Shown: piece after piece, positions 826-11,155 of the stretch
Position numbering within the stretch: the first letter of the stretch is position 1
How the letters are laid out: each line of letters opens with the position of its first letter
Source of the DNA: Betaproteobacteria bacterium UBA6910
GTDB taxonomy: Bacteria; Pseudomonadota; Gammaproteobacteria; Burkholderiales; UBA6910
Length of the DNA: 20,784 nucleotides
Direction of reading: 5' to 3'
Assembly (NCBI GenBank): GCA_002451065.1
Contig: DKBC01000300.1
Coordinates: 3,573-24,356 of the forward strand
Translations under genes and position numbers: made by a program
The notes under the pieces: model-generated
Seen by the model: the letters and a program-made list of their open reading frames with translations, nothing else
What the model was told of the DNA's origin: nothing
Databases searched by the model: none

Positions 826-1833
826 ATGACGGCAATGCTTAACGTGGTCTGGCTGCAGTCGGGCGGATGCGGCGGCTGCACCATCTCTCTGCTCAACAGC
901 GATTCCCGGGACCTGTTCGGCTCCCTGAAGGCCGCCGGGCTGTGCTTCCTGTGGCATCCGGCGCTCTCCGAGGAAAGTGGCGCGGAGGCCCTGGAAGTCC
1001 TCGAGCGCTGCGCGTCGGGCGCCGAGCGCCTGGACATCCTGTGCGTGGAGGGCTCCCTGTTGCGCGGCCCCCGGGGCACCGGGCGCTTTCACATGCTCGC
1101 CGGCACCGGGCTGCCCATGACCGACTGGGTCAGGCGCCTCGCGGCTCAGGCGCGCCACATCGTCGCCATCGGAAGTTGCGCCAGCTTCGGCGGCATCACC
1201 GCAGCCGGCGCCAACCCGGCGGAAGCCTGCGGGCTGCAGTACGAAGGCGAACTGCCGGGTGGCCTGCTCGGTCCCCGCTACCGTTCCCAATCCGGAATGC
1301 CGGTGATCAACGTAGCCGGCTGCCCCACCCATCCGGGTTGGGTCACCGATTCCCTCATGGCCATCGCCATGGGGAGCTTAGGCGGGGGCGATCTCGACGA
1401 GTTCAACCGGCCTCGCCTCTACACCAGCCATCTGGTGCACCACGGCTGCAACCGCAACGAGTATTACGAATTCAAGGCCAGCGCGGAAAAGCCTTCCGAC
1501 CTGGGCTGCCTGATGGAGAACATGGGGTGCATGGGCACCCAGGCCCACGCCGACTGCAACATCCGGCTGTGGAACGGGTCGGGTTCCTGCGTGCGCGGCG
1601 GTTTTGCCTGCGTCAGGTGCACCGAGCCGGAATTCGAGGAGCCGGGCCATCCGTTTGCGCGGACCCCCAAGGTGGCGGGCATCCCGTTGGCCCTTCCCAC
1701 GGACATGCCGAAAGCCTGGTTCATCGCCCTGTCTGCCCTCTCCAAGTCGGCGACACCGAAGCGGGTACGGGACAACGCCGTCGCCGACCACCAGGTGGTG
1801 GTGCCCCAGACCAAAAAGCCGGGCCCTCGATGA
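826..1833 (+). CDS. hoxB: Regulatory (H2-sensing) [NiFe]-hydrogenase small subunit HoxB/HupU
   Basis: This is the electron-transfer subunit of the H2 sensor, carrying iron-sulfur clusters. The 335-aa protein begins MTAMLNVVWLQSGGCGGCT. The WLQSGGCGGC motif (C15, C18) is typical of HupU/HoxB, whereas uptake hydrogenases usually have an EGQxCTGC-type motif. Further cluster ligands are visible in GSCASFGG, NVAGCPTHPGW and the Cys-rich C-terminal half (HHGCNRNEYY, LGCLMENMGCMG, GSGSCVRGGFACVRC). There is no twin-arginine leader, so it should stay in the cytoplasm, as expected of a sensor. AGGAGG lies 3 nt before this ATG; the in-frame ATG at 835 is an alternative start. Its TGA overlaps the hoxC start codon (ATGA), implying translational coupling. 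With HoxC it should bind H2 and pass the signal to the kinase at 3760-5181. Confidence 0.95.
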   Translation: MTAMLNVVWLQSGGCGGCTISLLNSDSRDLFGSLKAAGLCFLWHPALSEESGAEALEVLERCASGAERLDILCVEGSLLRGPRGTGRFHMLAGTGLPMTDWVRRLAAQARHIVAIGSCASFGGITAAGANPAEACGLQYEGELPGGLLGPRYRSQSGMPVINVAGCPTHPGWVTDSLMAIAMGSLGGGDLDEFNRPRLYTSHLVHHGCNRNEYYEFKASAEKPSDLGCLMENMGCMGTQAHADCNIRLWNGSGSCVRGGFACVRCTEPEFEEPGHPFARTPKVAGIPLALPTDMPKAWFIALSALSKSATPKRVRDNAVADHQVVVPQTKKPGPR

Positions 1834-3278
1834 CCCGCCTGGTGGTTGGACCGTTCAATCGGGTCGAGGGTGACCTGGAAGTCACCCTCGACATCGCCGA
1901 CGGCCTGGTGCGCGCGGCCTACGTCAACTCGCCGATGTACCGGGGCTTCGAGGAGATCCTGGTGGGCAAGGACCCCTTCGACGCCCTGGTGTTCGCCCCG
2001 CGCATCTGCGGCATCTGTTCCGTGTCCCAATCCACCGCGGCGGCACGGGCCCTGGCCCAGGCCATGAACATCGAAATGCCGGAAAACGGCGAACGAGCGG
2101 CCAACCTGGTGCTGGCGGCGGAGAACCTCGCCGACCACCTGACCCATTTTTACCTGTTTTTCATGCCGGACTTTGCGCGCAACGCCTATGCCGGACGGCC
2201 GTGGCATCCGTCGGTGAAAACGCGCTTCGCCGCCGTGAAAGGCAGCGCCACCACCGACGCCCTGCCGGCGCGCGCCGGGTTTCTCGCGATCATGGGGTAC
2301 CTCGCCGGGAAATGGCCTCACACCCTTGCCATCCAGCCCGGCGGCAGTTCCCGCTCCGTGGAAGAAGCCGAGCGCATCCGCGTCTGTGCGCTGCTGATCG
2401 AGTTCCGGGGGTTCCTCGAGCGCCGGCTGTTCGGAGACCGGTTGGAGGCCGTCACCGCCCTGGACAGCGAGCCGGCCCTGCGATCCTGGATGAAGCAACG
2501 GCCCCCGGCCGCCAGCGACTTCCGCTTGTTCCTGGAGATCGCCGACGACCTGGCGCTGGGACGGCTGGGGCGCGCTGGGGACCGCTTCCTGAGCTACGGC
2601 GCCTACCCGCTGCAGGGGAAGCCCCTGTTCGGCCGCGGCGTCTGGGACGACGGGATGGCTCCCTTCGATCCGGCGAATGTCACCGAAGACCCGACCTTCG
2701 CCTGGATGGACGGCCCCGGCAAGCCATTGCACCCCTCCGAGGGAGTCACGCGGCCCCACGCGGAAAAGGCGGACGCGTATTCCTGGTGCAAGGCGCCCCG
2801 ACTGGCGGGTAAGACCATGGAAACCGGCGCCTTGGCGCGCCAGATGGTGGATGGACTTCCCTTGATCCGGGACCTGGTGGCCGCGAGCGGCGGCAATGTG
2901 CGGAATCGGGTGATTGCCCGGTTGCTGGAGATTGCACGCGTGGTGCCCGCCATGGAGCAATGGGCCAGGGCGCTGAAGCCCGGGGAACCCTTCTGCCGGC
3001 AGGGCCCATTCCCCGACGATGCCTCCGGCGTGGGGCTCGCCGAAAGCGCCCGCGGCAGCCTCGGCCACTGGCTCACCGTATCCCGGGGGCGAATCCAGAA
3101 TTACCAGATCGTCTCGCCCACCACCTGGAACTTCTCGCCCCGGGACGCGGCGGGAATGGAAGGTCCTTTGGAGCAGGCCCTGGTGGGCACCCCAGTGGGG
3201 GATGCAGAGCGCGTGCCGCTGGCCGTTCAGCACGTGGTACGCTCCTTCGATCCCTGCATGGTATGCACGGTGCACTGA
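1830..3278 (+). CDS. hoxC: Regulatory (H2-sensing) [NiFe]-hydrogenase large subunit HoxC/HupV
   Basis: This 482-aa subunit holds the NiFe active site. The ligand pairs are RICGIC (C60, C63) and DPCMVC near the end (C476, C479). Three traits mark it as a sensor rather than an energy-conserving enzyme. First, RICGICSVSQS has Gln67 where catalytic enzymes usually have His. Second, the chain stops at DPCMVCTVH with no C-terminal peptide for a maturation endopeptidase to remove. Third, Ile62 and Phe110 sit at the positions where C. necator HoxC has bulky residues that narrow the gas channel and give O2 insensitivity (Val and Leu in standard enzymes). The start is the ATG overlapping the hoxB stop; the frame is open farther upstream, but that part is the hoxB shadow. 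A gap of about 25 bp leads to nikR. Confidence 0.96.
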   Translation: MTRLVVGPFNRVEGDLEVTLDIADGLVRAAYVNSPMYRGFEEILVGKDPFDALVFAPRICGICSVSQSTAAARALAQAMNIEMPENGERAANLVLAAENLADHLTHFYLFFMPDFARNAYAGRPWHPSVKTRFAAVKGSATTDALPARAGFLAIMGYLAGKWPHTLAIQPGGSSRSVEEAERIRVCALLIEFRGFLERRLFGDRLEAVTALDSEPALRSWMKQRPPAASDFRLFLEIADDLALGRLGRAGDRFLSYGAYPLQGKPLFGRGVWDDGMAPFDPANVTEDPTFAWMDGPGKPLHPSEGVTRPHAEKADAYSWCKAPRLAGKTMETGALARQMVDGLPLIRDLVAASGGNVRNRVIARLLEIARVVPAMEQWARALKPGEPFCRQGPFPDDASGVGLAESARGSLGHWLTVSRGRIQNYQIVSPTTWNFSPRDAAGMEGPLEQALVGTPVGDAERVPLAVQHVVRSFDPCMVCTVH

Positions 3279-3302: not shown

Positions 3303-3755
3303 ATGGAGCGTTTCACCATTTCCCTGGACGAGAAGCTGGCCCAGGAATTCGGCCGCCTGATCGAATCCCGCGGCTACCAGAACCGCTCGGAAGCGGTGCG
3401 CGACCTGATCCGGCGGGAGCTGGGGGAGCAACGTCTGAAGCGCGACGAGGCGCCCTACTGCATCGCCAACCTCTCCTATATCTACAACCACCACGAGCGG
3501 GAACTCTCCGAGCGGCTCACCGGGCTGCAGCACCACCACCACGACCTGGTGGTGTCCACCATGCACGCCCACCTGGACCATGACAATTGCCTGGAGACCG
3601 TGATCCTGCGCGGGCCGACGGGTCAGGTACGCAGCTTCGCCGACGTCATCACGGCCGAGCGCGGCGTGCGCCACGGCTCGCTCAACGTGGTGCCGGCGGA
3701 TGCCGAGAGCGGCGGGCACGGCCACTCCCATTTCCATTCCCACCCCGAGACCTGA
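3303..3755 (+). CDS. nikR: Nickel-responsive transcriptional regulator NikR
   Basis: This is a 150-aa NikR, a tetrameric ribbon-helix-helix repressor that binds DNA when loaded with nickel. Residues 1-45 (MERFTISLDEKLAQEF... YQNRSEAVRDLIR) form the ribbon-helix-helix domain. The ACT-like metal domain carries the expected square-planar site: a His in the HHHH run at 77-80, with H88, H90 and C96 in MHAHLDHDNC. The C-terminus has an added His-rich tail (GHGHSHFHSH) that may bind extra metal. GGAG lies upstream of the start. It sits between hoxC and the H2-sensor kinase, about 25 bp after hoxC and 4 bp before the kinase start. A NikR-type dyad precedes the nickel permease downstream (5308-5334), a likely direct target. 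Confidence 0.96.
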   Translation: MERFTISLDEKLAQEFGRLIESRGYQNRSEAVRDLIRRELGEQRLKRDEAPYCIANLSYIYNHHERELSERLTGLQHHHHDLVVSTMHAHLDHDNCLETVILRGPTGQVRSFADVITAERGVRHGSLNVVPADAESGGHGHSHFHSHPET

Positions 3756-3759
3756 GGGG

Positions 3760-5181
3760 ATGGCACCAGTTTCCCGCTCATCGGTGAAGCCCGGTAACCC
3801 GCGACCAGCCAGCGGCAAGCCCGGCGCCAAGAGGATGTCGCGGCGCGCCGAGCACACGGCCAGCCGGCTCACCACGATGGTGCCCATGGACGAAGCGGGC
3901 GAATCCATCTGGATCGACGTCATCCGCAAGATGGACGAGGTGTACGCGGACCTCCTCCAATACGAGTCCGCCCTGGAGGAGAAGAACAAGGCCCTGGAGG
4001 ATTCCCAGCGCTTCATCCTCAGCGTCCTCACCTCCATGTCCGACGTCCTCATCGTGTGCGACCGAGACGGCGTGATCCAGGAAGTGAATCAGGCCCTCAC
4101 CCAGCTCACCGGCCGCAGCGAAATGGCGTTGCGGGGCACTCCCCTGAAGGACCTGTTCGCTGAAGACGGTTCCAGCGCTCAGGCGAACCGCTTCGCCGAG
4201 TGCCTGCAGCAGAGGGGTGGCGTTCAAGACACCGAGCTCAGGATCATGAGTGCCGACGGCAGCGGCGTGCCGGTGGCCATCAACTGCACACCGCGCCTGA
4301 ACCAGATCGGGAAACTGGTGGGCATGGTGGTCGCCGGGCGCCCCCTGGGAGACCTGCACAAGGCATACAAGGCGCTGACCGAGGCCCATGAGGAGCTGAA
4401 GCACACCCAGCAGCAGCTGGTGCATTCCGAAAAGATGGCTTCCCTCGGCCTCCTGGTGGCGGGCGTCGCCCACGAGCTCAACAATCCCATCAGCTTCGTG
4501 CTCGGGAACGTGCACGCGCTGCAACGTTATGCCGAACGTCTGCAAAGCTACCTGGATGCGATCCACGACGGAGCCGACCTGCAGCAGCGGGAGCGTCTGC
4601 GCCGCGAACTGCGTGTCGACCATATCGTGAGGGACCTTCGGCCCCTGATCGAGGGCACCATCGAGGGCGCGGAACGCACCCGCGACATCGTGGACGGGCT
4701 CAAGCGTTTCTCCGCCAAGGACCGGGACGAAGGGGTGCGCTTCAACCTTACCGAAACCCTGGAGCGGGCGGTGCATTGGGTGGTGAAGGCTTCCGCCAAG
4801 CCCTTGGAGGTAGCCTGGGACGTCCCCCGGGAAATTCCGGTGCTGGGCTCCCTGGGCCAGTTGCAGCAGGTGCTGGTCAACCTGGTGCAGAACGCCCTGG
4901 ATGCCGCGGGCAAGGGCCCCCATCCCCGTCTCGAGATTTCGGCACGCGCGGCGGAGGGATACGTTGAGGCGAACTTTCACGACAACGGCCCGGGCATCGA
5001 GGCCCAGCATTTGTCCCGCGTCTTCGACCCGTTCTTCACCACCAAGCCGTTGGGCAAGGGTACGGGCCTCGGTCTCTCCATCAGCTTTGGGATCGTCGAG
5101 CGCCATGGCGGGACGCTCTCCGCGGCCAATCATCCGCAGGGCGGGGCCGTGTTCACGCTGCGACTGCCCCTGGCGTCCTGA
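3760..5181 (+). CDS. hoxJ: PAS-domain sensor histidine kinase HoxJ/HupT-like, H2 signalling
   Basis: This is a 473-aa soluble kinase with no membrane segments. In order: a basic, probably disordered N-terminus; a short helical stretch [19 protein letters not shown] with coiled-coil EEKNKALED (about 50-82); a PAS domain (about 85-195); an H-box [20 protein letters not shown] with phospho-acceptor H238; and an HATPase domain with N-box [19 protein letters not shown], and [21 protein letters not shown]. The [10 protein letters not shown]...MDEVYADLL start matches what I recall of HoxJ/HupT kinases, which bind HoxBC/HupUV through the PAS region and act on HoxA/HupR. This ATG lies 4 bp after nikR with GAGGGG directly before it; in-frame ATGs at 3835 and 3880 are alternatives. 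HoxJ and HupT are not separated by sequence here, so the symbol rests on context. Confidence 0.88.
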
Positions 5182-5294
5182 CCACGAAACCAGGTCACGG
5201 CCCTTGCGAAGCATCCCCGTTTCCGGAAAGCCTCCAGCCGGCACGGGAAATCAGACAGACGACACAAATTAAATAAAACAGAGACTTGTAAAAC

Positions 5295-5310
5295 TGGCAC
5301 GAACTTTGTA
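5295..5310 (+). promoter_or_regulatory. Possible sigma-54 (-24/-12) promoter of the nickel permease gene
   Basis: TGGCACG at 5295-5301 is a perfect -24 element. TTGTA follows at 5306-5310 with canonical spacing (10 nt between GG and the -12 dinucleotide). The -12 dinucleotide is GT instead of the near-invariant GC, so this is one base from consensus in its most sensitive position. A competing sigma-70 reading of the same bases is TTGTAA (5286-5291), 17 nt, TATGAA (5309-5314), 4 of 6 matches in each hexamer. Either reading puts the promoter core on the left half of the NikR dyad. A nearby sigma-54 activator (HoxA) makes the first reading attractive but unproven. Confidence 0.45.
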
Positions 5311-5334
5311 TGAAAAACGCTAACTTTGTCATAC
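5308..5334. promoter_or_regulatory. NikR-type operator upstream of the nickel permease gene
   Basis: The half-sites GTATGA (5308-5313) and TCATAC (5329-5334) form a perfect inverted repeat separated by 15 nt. The established E. coli NikR operator is GTATGA-N16-TCATAC, so both half-sites are exact and the spacer is one base shorter. The symmetry extends inward: GTATGAAAAA versus GTATGACAAA after reverse complement, 9 of 10. The site covers the presumed promoter core and start point of the permease gene and lies 24 bp before its ATG, a geometry suited to repression when nickel is plentiful. nikR is two genes upstream. Confidence 0.85.
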
Positions 5335-5358
5335 GACGGTGAAGCGGGAGACAGAGCC

Positions 5359-6174
5359 ATGGAAACGCTGCCGAACGACTGGATCGCACTGCTGGCCCTG
5401 GTGTTCATTCTCGGGCTCAAGCATGGGCTGGACGCCGATCACCTGGTGGCCATTGACGGCCTGACCCGCTATAACGCCCAGCAGCATCCGCACATGGCGC
5501 GCTGGTGCGGCTTTCTGTTCTCGCTGGGCCACGGAGCCATCGTCATCGCCGTGGCCTTCTCCGTCGGCGCGCTGACCGGTGAATGGCGGGTGCCGGGATG
5601 GGTGGCGGACCTCGGGGCGTGGATTTCCATCGCGTTTCTCATGGCATTGGGCATTGCCAATCTGATCGCAGTCCTTACCGCGCCCCCAGACCAGGTGGTA
5701 CGCCCCGTCGGCGTCAAGGGCCGGCTCCTGGGGGGACTGCAGCGCTCGAGCCACCCGCTCGCCATCGCGCTGGTCGGTGCCCTGTTCGCCCTGTCCTTCG
5801 ACACCATGAGCCAGGCCGCCCTGTTCGCGGTGACCGCCACCCAGTTCGGCGGCTGGACCCACTCCGTGGCACTGGGGCTCGCATTCATGCTGGGCATGAT
5901 GGTGGCGGACGGCGCCAATGGCCTCTGGATCTCGCGCCTCATCCGCCGCGCCGACCGCACCGCCCTGGTGGCTTCCCGCACCTTCAGCCTCGTGGTTTCA
6001 GGCTTGTCGCTGGCCCTGGCCGGCTTCGGCATCGCCAAGTATTTCTCGCCAGGCCTGGATGGTTGGACCGAGGGCGCAGAACTCGTGGCAGGCCTTTCCG
6101 TCGTGGCCATCATCGCGGTGTCGTTCGCCGTATCGCTTCGGCTCGCCCGCCCCGTTTTAGTCCGCGCCAGCTAA
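5359..6174 (+). CDS. HoxN/HupN/NixA-family nickel/cobalt permease (NiCoT)
   Basis: This integral inner-membrane carrier imports Ni2+ (possibly Co2+), here most likely for hydrogenase cofactor assembly. The 271-aa protein has a first-helix signature HX4DH (H22, D27, H28 in LKHGLDADHLVAID), the LGHG motif at 56-59, and a FDTMSQAAL segment matching the FDT(A)S(E) motif of the family. About seven or eight hydrophobic helices are visible. An upstream TTG at 5326 is in frame, but ATG 5359 is preferred: it has a purine-rich stretch (AGCGGGAG) before it and leaves the NikR dyad untranslated. The 144-bp AT-rich gap after the kinase suggests its own promoter. Whether Ni or Co is preferred cannot be read from the sequence; the NikR site argues for nickel. 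Confidence 0.92.
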   Translation: METLPNDWIALLALVFILGLKHGLDADHLVAIDGLTRYNAQQHPHMARWCGFLFSLGHGAIVIAVAFSVGALTGEWRVPGWVADLGAWISIAFLMALGIANLIAVLTAPPDQVVRPVGVKGRLLGGLQRSSHPLAIALVGALFALSFDTMSQAALFAVTATQFGGWTHSVALGLAFMLGMMVADGANGLWISRLIRRADRTALVASRTFSLVVSGLSLALAGFGIAKYFSPGLDGWTEGAELVAGLSVVAIIAVSFAVSLRLARPVLVRAS

Positions 6175-6260
6175 CTAGTCGCCGACGCCTCCGGCGCGGC
6201 GGCGGCGCCCGCGGGGTTTTGGTTCCGGCGGGTGGGTGCGTTTATCATGGCTACCCCCCC

Positions 6261-7064
6261 ATGATGCAACCCGCCCGCAAAACCGCCGAAGTCATACCTC
6301 TGCGCCCGCGGAGGCGCGAATCCGCGCCGCCCCTGGCTGCGGTCCCTGGTGCGCCCCTGTCCGCGGTAGACCGGCGCTCGCTCAAGCTGCTGTGGTTTCT
6401 CGCGCTCTCGGCCGCGCTCCACGGCACTGTGATGCTGTTCTCCCCGGCGGTTCGGATCGAGCACCTGGCCGAGACCCCGGACATACTCACCGTGCGCCTG
6501 ACCGAAGTGCCGCAGGTTGCCGAGCGAATCGCGGATCCGCTTCCTGATATCGTCCGCGAGGCGCCGAAACCGAGCGTGCCACGCAAGCCCCTGCAGCGGC
6601 GTCCGCCGGCCCGGGCCAAGTCACCGACGGCGGTTGCGGCGCTGTCGCCGCCCGCACCGGTCGCCACCGAACAGCCGATCACGAGCCCCCCGACAGACGT
6701 GCACGCCGAACCGGCCGATGTCCCGGACCCGGCGCCGACCCAGGAAAGCACGCACGTCGCCCGCAGCGCGCCCGCGCTGGTTCCGCCCACCTTTTCCGCC
6801 GCTTATCTGAAAAACCCGCCGCCCGAATACCCGGCCCTCGCCCGCCGGCGCGGCCAGGAGGGTCTGGTGCTGCTTCGGGTTCGGGTGAGCGAATCCGGCA
6901 GCCCGGCCGAGGTCCGCATCGCCGAATCGTCGGGCAGCACCCTTCTCGACAACGCCGCCCTGGAAGCCGTGGAGCGCTGGAGTTTTGTTCCGGCGCGCCG
7001 CGGTGACCAGCCCATCCCAGCATGGGTCGAGGTCCCCGTCCGTTTTCGCCTGAAGGAACGCTGA
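6261..7064 (+). CDS. TonB-family energy-transducing protein
   Basis: This 267-aa protein has the standard TonB layout. A short cytoplasmic basic N-terminus (RPRRRES) precedes one membrane anchor at about 41-61 (LKLLWFLALSAALHGTVMLF). A Pro/Ala-rich periplasmic linker follows (about 75-180, with many PAP, PPA and KP repeats). The C-terminal TonB domain begins near YPALARRRGQEG and runs through LRVRVSESGSPAEVRIAESSG to VRFRLKER. TonB proteins carry proton-motive-force energy from ExbB/ExbD to outer-membrane receptors. No exbB or exbD lies in the window, so it is an orphan or works with distant partners. The start ATG is doubled (6261 and 6264) and neither has a clear ribosome binding site; CCCCCCC lies directly upstream. 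The frame is open far upstream, but that is a shadow of the permease gene. Confidence 0.88.
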   Translation: MMQPARKTAEVIPLRPRRRESAPPLAAVPGAPLSAVDRRSLKLLWFLALSAALHGTVMLFSPAVRIEHLAETPDILTVRLTEVPQVAERIADPLPDIVREAPKPSVPRKPLQRRPPARAKSPTAVAALSPPAPVATEQPITSPPTDVHAEPADVPDPAPTQESTHVARSAPALVPPTFSAAYLKNPPPEYPALARRRGQEGLVLLRVRVSESGSPAEVRIAESSGSTLLDNAALEAVERWSFVPARRGDQPIPAWVEVPVRFRLKER

Positions 7065-9430: not shown

Positions 9431-10746
9431 ACTCGGTGCGCGGGCGGCTTCTCGCCTGGCTCATGGTGGGACTATGCCTGGCCCTGCTGCCCACCGGGGT
9501 CGCGGCGTATCTCAAAGCCCGGGAGGAGGTGAACCTGCTGCTGGACTACCAGCTCAAGGAAACCGCCCTCTCCCTCAGGCGCCAGAGCCTGCTCGCCGCG
9601 GCCATGGCACGGGAGTTCGACAGCCGGGGAGAGGAGGGGGACGTGGTGGTGCAAATCTGGGACCAGGTTGCGGGTCTCATGTACGTTTCCCGGGCGGACC
9701 GGGAGCTGCCGCTGATTCCCCTCGAGGGATTTCACGATGTTTCCTGGCAGGGCAGGGAGTGGCGGGCCTATGTGCTCCGGGCAGGTTCCCGCACCATCCA
9801 GGTGGCCCAGCCTCTGGGACTTCGATCCCGGCTCAGCGCGGACATCGCGTTCCGCAACATGGTGCCCTACCTGGCTCTGGTTCCCTTTGCCGGCGCCATC
9901 GTCTGGTTCGGGGTCGGATTTGGCCTGCGCCCCCTGCGCCGGGTCACGGAGGCCGTGGGACGGCGCCGGCCGGACGCCCTGAATCCGTTGCCATCCTCGG
10001 GGCTGCCGGAGGAAATCCGGCCCTTGGCAGAATCGCTGAACGAACTCCTGGTGCGGCTCGATCACGCGTTTTCGGCCCAGCGCCAGTTCGTGGCGGACGC
10101 CGCCCATGAGTTGCGTACTCCCCTCACCGCCCTGCAGCTCCAGCTGCAGAACCTGGAAAGCACCGACGAGGCCCAGCGCGCGGCGGCCATCCGGGAACTC
10201 CGGGCCGGGCTCAAACGTGCTGCCCGCCTGGTGGAGCAACTACTCGCCATGGCCCGGCTCGAACCTGACGCGCCCGTCCCGTCGGAGACCGTGGATCTGG
10301 AGGCGCTGGCGAAAGGCGTCGTCGCCGAAATGTCGGTTCATGCCGAGGCCAGGAACATCGATCTTGGGATTCTGGAGAGCACTCCGGTCGCGGTTACGGG
10401 AAACCGCGACAACCTGCGCCTTCTGCTGCGCAACCTGGTGGACAACGCGGTGCGCTACACCCCCGAGGGCGGAAGGGTCGACGTCCTTGTCAATTCTTCC
10501 GGGCCGGACGCGCTGCTGGAGGTGGCGGACACCGGGCCCGGCATATCCACCGAAGAGCGGGGGCGCGTCTTTGACCGCTTCTTCCGCGGTGCCGGCGTGG
10601 AGCAGCCGGGCTCCGGCCTGGGCCTCGCCATCGTGAAGCGCGTCGCCGAGCGCCACGGGGGGAGCGTCACCCTGGCAGACGGCGAGGGCGGCCGGGGCCT
10701 TCGCGTGACGGTCCGATTGCGGGGCTTCCGTTCCGCGCCCGGTTAA
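9427..10746 (+). CDS. Two-component sensor histidine kinase (QseC-like)
   Basis: This is a 439-aa inner-membrane kinase paired with the preceding regulator. TM1 is at about 8-28 (LLAWLMVGLCLALLPTGVAA). A short periplasmic sensor segment (about 30-144) follows, and TM2 is at about 146-166. A brief linker leads to the dimerisation and phosphotransfer domain with FVADAAHELRTPL (H227). The ATPase domain has N-box LRNLVDNAVRYTP, G1 DTGPGIS and G2 GSGLGLAIVKR. The N-terminal 2CSK-type sensor layout and H-box resemble QseC and TctE. ATG 9427 overlaps the regulator stop (ATGA); a TTG two codons earlier is possible but less likely. The stop codon overlaps that of the converging minus-strand gene. Confidence 0.93.
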   Translation: MNSVRGRLLAWLMVGLCLALLPTGVAAYLKAREEVNLLLDYQLKETALSLRRQSLLAAAMAREFDSRGEEGDVVVQIWDQVAGLMYVSRADRELPLIPLEGFHDVSWQGREWRAYVLRAGSRTIQVAQPLGLRSRLSADIAFRNMVPYLALVPFAGAIVWFGVGFGLRPLRRVTEAVGRRRPDALNPLPSSGLPEEIRPLAESLNELLVRLDHAFSAQRQFVADAAHELRTPLTALQLQLQNLESTDEAQRAAAIRELRAGLKRAARLVEQLLAMARLEPDAPVPSETVDLEALAKGVVAEMSVHAEARNIDLGILESTPVAVTGNRDNLRLLLRNLVDNAVRYTPEGGRVDVLVNSSGPDALLEVADTGPGISTEERGRVFDRFFRGAGVEQPGSGLGLAIVKRVAERHGGSVTLADGEGGRGLRVTVRLRGFRSAPG

Positions 10747-11012
10747 CTCACCACCATCGCGCCCCGGATTACGCCCTTGATCGAAATCGGCGTGCGCGCC
10801 GCGGCGGGCGGGACCATTACCTGGATGGACTTGATGTTCACCACCGGGAACAGCATCAGGATTCCGTCCGCTTCGACCATCACGTACTGGTTCTTGAGAA
10901 TCTCCTCCAGCATGATCTGCCGGGCGGCCTCGTTCTTGGCCTGCTCCGGAAAATCGAAAGAAATGTTGGTTCCATCCATGAAATGCAGCGTGAGGGATCG
11001 GTCCTTGGCCAT
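10743..11012 (-). CDS. Conserved hypothetical protein (89 aa)
   Basis: This is a small soluble protein with no signal peptide or membrane helix. It starts MAKDRSLTLHFMDGTNISFDFPEQ and contains a central helical part (AKNEAARQIMLEEILKNQ) and a strand-rich second half (YVMVEADGILMLFPVVNIKSIQVMVPP). The start is set by a strong AGGAGGAA sequence 6-8 nt upstream; the longer open frame to 11123 includes non-coding leader. Its stop overlaps the kinase stop tail to tail. The alternating hydrophobic pattern suggests a small beta-rich fold, but I do not recognise a family with a known function. I have an impression of similar proteins in Betaproteobacteria, which would need a database search to confirm. 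Confidence 0.75.
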   Translation of the reverse strand: MAKDRSLTLHFMDGTNISFDFPEQAKNEAARQIMLEEILKNQYVMVEADGILMLFPVVNIKSIQVMVPPAAARTPISIKGVIRGAMVVS

Positions 11013-11155
11013 GCCCTTCCTCCTGTCAGGAATTCCCGGCAGGATGTTAGCACAGCGCCCCAACGGGCTTCGTCCCGTGCAAGTTGGACCGTCTGGCTTA
11101 TTCCGGTAAGCTTCGCCCGACATACAGCCCCTCAGCCTTGGAGAAGGAAGCTCCC

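Follow-up and report, generated by a model that had tools for sequence, protein, structure and literature searches.

A NikR-type operator overlapping a sigma-54-type promoter element upstream of a NicO-family permease gene in a betaproteobacterial hox gene neighbourhood

In the DNA analysed here (20,784 nucleotides of Betaproteobacteria bacterium UBA6910, hereafter the window), a NicO-family permease gene is preceded by two regulatory motifs that share bases. A sigma-54-type −24/−12 element, TGGCACG-AACT-TTGTA (GG-N10-GT), lies on the plus strand at 5295–5310, and a NikR-type operator, GTATGA-N15-TCATAC, lies at 5308–5334. The initial annotation of this DNA had described both motifs and an overlap of the left half-site with TTGTA; its letters and coordinates are right, and GTA at 5308–5310 is common to the two. 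Counted from the −12 base T5309 by sigma-54 spacing, the predicted transcription start is at 5321 (plus strand), which would place the operator over −13 to +14. It is likely that transcription of the permease gene starts at a sigma-54 promoter that a NikR operator covers at the −12 region, the melting region and the start, and that the gene is on only when hydrogen is present and nickel is short. Comparison with relatives supports the view that the overlap is under selection, since the register, the −24 and −12 boxes and the operator arms are kept while the dyad interior and the flanks vary.

The genome is a 3.28 Mb draft of 365 contigs, 85.5% complete, and was the sole genome of its genus in a genus-level search. 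The plus-strand order is hoxA-like gene, hoxB, hoxC, nikR, hoxJ-like gene, 177 nt of intergenic DNA and the permease gene; the genes preceding the window are presumably hypE-like and hypX-like, as judged by position and likeness. The hoxA-like sigma-54 activator gene (3–674, +) has its 5′ end outside the window, and the C-terminal part present matches PF00158 (Sigma54_activat), an AAA lid and HTH_8; the N-terminal part, as seen in locus L125, looks receiver-like by eye. The regulatory hydrogenase is encoded by a hoxB-like small subunit gene (826–1833, +; PF01058, PF14720), the product of which is 68.6% identical to the annotated small subunit of Cupriavidus necator (C. necator), and by a hoxC-like large subunit gene (1833–3278, +; PF00374) whose translation ends in DPCMVCTVH. 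The nikR gene follows at 3303–3755 (+; NikR_C, RHH_1). Its product scores over the cut-off of NF002815 and under that of TIGR02793 (163.5 versus 175.45); aligned with E. coli NikR (1q5v/2hzv), it keeps R3, T5 and the HHHHD...HxH...DxC stretch, with T7 replaced by S, residues which we take to be those that bind DNA and metal. The hoxJ-like PAS histidine kinase gene (3757–5181, +; start uncertain, open reading frame from 3700) is named from its PAS, HisKA and HATPase_c domains and its place in the hox cluster. A complete HoxBCJA-type set is thus present, i.e. regulatory hydrogenase, kinase and sigma-54 response regulator, the receiver domain being assigned by eye. These domain matches agree with the earlier assignment of a sigma-54 activator (HoxA), an H2 sensor and NikR to this block, and the genome also contains rpoN (PF04552 match).

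The permease gene (5359–6174, +) encodes 271 aa and matches PF03824 with 49.7 against a cut-off of 27.7. Its ATG at 5359 corresponds to the codon used by several relatives and follows a likely ribosome-binding site, GGGAGA, at 5346–5351 (+). A TTG start further upstream, at 5326, was rejected; it falls inside the operator. The narrower HoxN/HupN/NixA model TIGR00802 gives 57.4 bits, under its cut-off of 333.05, so that nickel as the substrate is deduced from the broader family and from context. On the same strand, 3′ of the permease gene, is a TonB energy-transducer gene (PF03544; 6264–7061, +), and the permease transcript might also serve outer-membrane nickel uptake through it. A small open reading frame of 126 aa with no Pfam match is found at 10746–11123 (−).

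Both half-sites of the operator are exact, and the 27-bp dyad ends 24 nt 5′ of the permease ATG. An exact dyad with spacers of 14–17 occurs once in the window and in 0/100 shuffles, and with spacers of 13–18 the draft genome has no other exact site. Binding of NikR at 5308–5334 would be expected from these letters. The half-sites are identical to those of the E. coli nikABCDE operator, GTATGA-N16-TCATAC, which serves NikR-repressed nickel uptake (PMC7055735, excerpt); the E. coli operon differs in encoding an ABC transporter and in its spacer of 16, against a permease and 15 here. The annotation had pointed to a spacer one base shorter than in E. coli. The N15 is correct, but it is not unusual, as published NikR signals are inverted repeats of 27–28 bp with N13/14 between 7-bp arms (PMC545781, excerpt). 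Those signals, from predicted delta-proteobacterial regulons, resemble the present one in lying upstream of nickel transporters, and differ in the arm GTGTTAC and in the transporters concerned; the excerpted text mentions no overlap with sigma-54 elements (PMC545781). When the bare dyad was looked for across the class, 110 of 369 genomes had a match; this result was set aside because reversed-pattern controls also match frequently.

The −24 side of the sigma-54-type element, TGGCACG at 5295–5301, follows the TGGCAC...-type −24/−12 consensus, and the N10 between the two dinucleotides is also present; at −12 the window has GT in place of the canonical GC. The element had been called near-perfect. 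The GG-N10 spacing and the single GT mismatch are as described, but taken alone the element is not significant in the window, with four matches at ≤2 mismatches against a mean of 1.98 in shuffles. Conservation therefore had to decide, and it is from conservation that the significance comes.

The first comparison set was drawn from a permease search of 399 genomes of the order, 112 of which had a match. It consists of the 50 best places of that result plus five named loci from metagenome-assembled genomes titled Azonexus, Rhodocyclaceae, Azonexaceae and Sulfuricella, and numbers 54 after one identical pair was merged. The annotation had held that its reading would fall if the −24/−12 bases were not conserved in relatives; upstream of the permease gene they are conserved together with the dyad. 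In six aligned representatives from five genera, TGGCAC and TTGTATGA are invariant and the right arm nearly so, while the N5, the dyad interior and the flank vary. Each part of the composite tends to accompany its own regulator. The sigma-54 element at ≤1 mismatch occurs in 17/22 hoxJ-adjacent loci of the first set versus 2/32 other loci (0.4/54 expected by chance from dinucleotide shuffles). NikR status covers 51 of the 54 genomes, and the dyad (≤2 mismatches) is found in 20 of the 29 loci in genomes with NikR versus 2 of the 22 in genomes without it; nine loci in NikR genomes thus have no dyad match, and two in NikR-less genomes have a dyad-like one. Hox-linked loci that have no element at one mismatch are also seen (5/22 hoxJ-adjacent loci here, 12/35 in the second set). 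A permease tree yields only four supported independent pairs (3.1 agree, 0.0 disagree; not significant), and so does not settle the independence of these associations.

Single relatives show parts of the composite lost or changed. G132, of the same family and 94% complete, has no NikR match in its genome, and about 130 nt separate hoxC from hoxJ, where nikR stands in the window; its promoter has an intact −24/−12 element and a decayed right dyad arm. G276 and G216 have the hox cluster and no NikR; their element ends in TTGCT, with the canonical GC, and the dyad is absent. G330 has only distant hoxJ-like matches (27–28%) in the stretch examined, and there the dyad is present with one mismatch and the −24/−12 spacing is lost; in G062, of the same genus, hoxJ is nearby and the composite is intact.

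The second comparison set comes from the family of G217, where 106 of the 365 genomes searched have a permease match at E ≤ 1e-40. It contains 99 loci, i.e. 102 minus three repeats (L226 = L034, L263 = L035, and L240, whose upstream region is the same as that of L239). There is some overlap with the first set, as genus g76 is in both and L236 is identical to L032 at 113/120 positions. With the repeats retained, the counts stand at 50/71 for GGCA offsets, 25/38 and 12/64 for the element, 57 composites, and 23/26 and 5/31 for the activator dyad.

A NikR-like dyad precedes 69 of the 99 permease loci, with a spacer of N15 in 63 of the 69. When loci are chosen by the dyad alone, GGCA is found 12 nt upstream of it in 39/69 and 13 nt upstream in 9/69, 48/69 in total; all 61 remaining offsets combined account for 16 (binomial P 4e-85, not corrected for kinship). 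A composite, defined as an element with ≤3 mismatches in register 13 or 14 to the dyad, occurs in 55/99 loci and in 17 of 34 genera, not counting g439, a genus represented by a repeat alone. The association with hoxJ is seen again: the element at ≤1 mismatch precedes 23/35 hoxJ-adjacent loci versus 12/64 others.

The −12 base is T in all 55 composites of this set. In the 44 of register 13 the T also belongs to the dyad, so that only the 11 composites of register 14, all with T, are independent on this point. Hydrogenase promoters give a further view. Two hydrogenase operons of the window's own genome have the sigma-54-type elements TGGCACG-CTGC-TTGCG and TGGCACG-GAAC-TTGTA; the latter (L156, 4614–4629, contig C288) has the same TTGTA ending and no NikR dyad. 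Among 30 hydrogenase loci, 400 nt each, four have a perfect element, two have one with one mismatch and 24 have none; three of the four perfect ones end in TTGT (L186, L187, L192), and the dyad is present in none. GT at −12 is thus a recurrent form here and not a fatal mismatch.

The annotation had also named a sigma-70 promoter, TTGTAA-N17-TATGAA, as the alternative start. On that explanation sigma-70 polymerase drives the permease gene, NikR represses it as in E. coli nik, and the likeness to a −24/−12 element is a by-product. The two hexamers each match at 4/6 positions, and permease loci with a dyad and no −24/−12 element do exist, e.g. L136, which has TATGAT. No −35 box is conserved, however: the match is 1–3/6 in most first-set composites (4 in L125 and L130, 5 in L035), while TGGCAC is conserved. 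A strict sigma-70 scan of 5100–6300 found 0 sites, and the concentration of GGCA at two neighbouring offsets also speaks against a by-product. This explanation appears quite unlikely.

A further question is whether the permease gene needs a promoter of its own. The DNA between hoxJ and the permease gene yielded no terminator, so the permease transcript may also come from read-through, and in G199 and G372 the permease gene begins about 30 nt or less after hoxJ with no element at one mismatch. It might then be supposed that read-through from hoxABC-nikR-hoxJ is the main source of expression, with the NikR site acting as a roadblock and the −24/−12 element a remnant. If the element were a remnant, −24, −12 and register would not have been conserved in half of the 34 genera, nor in loci that have no hoxJ upstream, and read-through as the main source is therefore very improbable. 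A sigma-54 promoter under a NikR operator remains the preferred reading.

Of the 55 second-set composites, 31 do not directly follow hoxJ. For 11 loci where hoxJ is not adjacent, stretches of 16–19 kb were searched; in one of them, from G906, a hox cluster stands at a distance of about 6 kb, and the other 10 have no match of at least 45%. In genus g428 the promoter reads NGGCATG-N4-TTGTATGA with the dyad, and nikR is nearby, with no close hoxJ in the stretches examined. The composite is thus wider than the hox cluster, and an H2 input may not be general.

A candidate activator (HoxA) site, GGAAAGCCTCCAGCC, lies at 5225–5239 (+) in the window. Its left arm is perfect and its right arm degenerate (3/12 mismatches), and with one good arm this copy taken alone has a P of 0.067. 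GGAAAG occurs 70 nt upstream of TGG in the window's genome (G000), G132, G092 and G048. The full motif, GGAAAG-N3-CTTTCC, was framed from G092 and the hydrogenase promoter of G071 after the first set had been viewed, and was for this reason tested on the second set. In the other lineages of the first set the combined P is 5e-5, with three overlaps with hoxJ codons excluded. At ≤3 mismatches the motif is found in 21/24 hoxJ-adjacent composites of the second set (1.8 expected) and in 5/31 others (1.3 expected; Fisher 3e-8, computed before duplicates were dropped). Eleven of the 21 matches are in non-coding DNA; the remaining 10 reach into the end of hoxJ and may be due to its codons. The C. necator promoters PMBH and PSH have no good match, the best in about 500 nt having four and three of 12 mismatches, respectively.

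We infer that GGAAAG-N3-CTTTCC is a HoxA site. It could be argued instead that the sigma-54 promoter and the NikR operator are real and that activation comes from a protein other than HoxA, or answers to a signal other than H2, with a different enhancer-binding protein driving the composites generally. The 31 composites with no adjacent hoxJ, such as those of g428, and the poor matches in C. necator fit such an arrangement. It is, however, hard to square with the concentration of the activator dyad in hoxJ-adjacent composites, with the association of hoxJ and the sigma-54 element in both sets, and with the hoxA-like activator gene in the window's own cluster, and on balance another activator seems unlikely. 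A variant dyad, GCATAG-N3-CTAACC, is present in g428 loci L268, L269, L274, L279, L280, L285 and L291, 79–80 nt upstream of the −24 box. These composites have no adjacent hoxJ and the place of the dyad is fixed; a diverged activator may bind there.

In C. necator, sigma-54 promoters are switched on by HoxA in its unphosphorylated form, which HoxJ inactivates when H2 is absent (PMC10073562, excerpt). With HoxA as the activator of the permease promoter, the HoxBC sensor would, when H2 is present, keep HoxJ from inactivating HoxA, as reported for C. necator. HoxA would then activate the sigma-54 RNA polymerase, probably from the 15-bp GGAAAG-N3-CTTTCC-type dyad about 70 nt upstream of the −24 box. 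When nickel in the cell is ample, Ni-NikR on −13 to +14 would, judging from its position, block polymerase binding or opening. The predicted net output is nickel uptake that requires both a sensed H2 signal and a shortage of nickel, i.e. an AND gate at the permease promoter that depends on HoxA and has H2 as an input. Since the H2 sensor, as a NiFe protein, depends on nickel too, the output should drop again at extreme nickel starvation, and instead of a plain AND the gate may act as a band-pass for nickel. A broader proposal, possible though tentative, is that composites in which a NikR operator shares or abuts −13/−12 and spans the start form a conserved promoter class that acts as a nickel-import band-pass, with T at −12 as part of the design. 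Such promoters would be off without H2, for want of active HoxA, off under NikR when nickel is ample, and off once more when nickel is extremely scarce.

Sigma-54 promoters are generally regarded as silent without their activator, and a repressor site inside the core is therefore unusual. If the proposed control is true, the supply of a metal cofactor is tied, at one promoter, to the inducing signal of the enzyme that needs the metal, and predictions could be made as to which hydrogen oxidisers adjust their nickel uptake to H2. The composite also offers a natural two-input promoter for testing how a repressor halts sigma-54 polymerase.

The logic has precedent: E. coli nik also needs FNR, and activation combined with NikR repression is known there. 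That promoter presumably uses sigma-70 with FNR, where the window is read as using sigma-54 with HoxA. The C. necator promoters PSH and PMBH are alike in their H2-sensing cluster (HoxBC-HoxJ-HoxA) and sigma-54 dependence (PMC10073562, excerpt). Before C. necator hoxK, the sequence most like the element is AGGCATAGATCTTGTT, which again has GT at −12 and ends in TTGTT; it is a candidate, chosen by match and not by a mapped start. PSH and PMBH differ in driving hydrogenase genes and in lacking a NikR-like dyad, the closest match in about 500 nt having four mismatches. NikR regulation has been predicted for Ni-specific NiCoT permeases and for Ni-Fe hydrogenase (PMC2667541, excerpt); the excerpt gives no promoter architecture, and the word ‘promoter’ occurs 0 times in the main text. 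A search of the open-access PMC literature on NikR together with sigma 54, RpoN or HoxJ found no description of the overlap. NikR repression of nickel transporters, HoxA/sigma-54 control and the N15 spacing are known; their overlap in one core promoter appears to be new, with no earlier description found in open-access PMC.

Some further motifs and searches may be mentioned. CAA 16 nt upstream of the −24 box is present in 6/7 first-set lineages (at most four in 1000 shuffles) and in 9/57 second-set composites before deduplication. It is treated as lineage-limited, being rare in the second set and mostly from one genus there; the window has CAG at 5279–5281. TTG-N5-CAA, which we take to be the HupR site, is near only 3/22 permease promoters and 5/26 promoters and was dropped. 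A class-wide search for the composite (≤2 mismatches, 369 genomes) gave, besides the window's genome, three two-mismatch matches and no support beyond the order. In the order-wide search (≤3 mismatches, 399 genomes), 41 genomes have a match. Those with three mismatches are mostly taken as chance, as controls match too, and the one-mismatch composite of G344 also looks like chance; G344 has no NikR, and the piece tried has no Pfam match. At zero mismatches 6/6 composites are upstream of the permease gene, as is the one-mismatch composite of G306. Two-mismatch composites are found in G213, with no GG and about 2.5 kb from nikR, and in G058, before a TonB receptor gene.

G058, which belongs to another family of the order, has two genes that are preceded by GG-N10-GT and, in the same register, by a NikR-like dyad: a permease gene and a TonB-dependent receptor gene (PF00593; L160, about 4776–4815, minus strand, and L159). 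In G071 and G024 (L039, L041) both operator arms are changed together, by eye, to TTAAGA and TCTTAC with about 15 nt between, as if NikR may read another half-site in these two loci.
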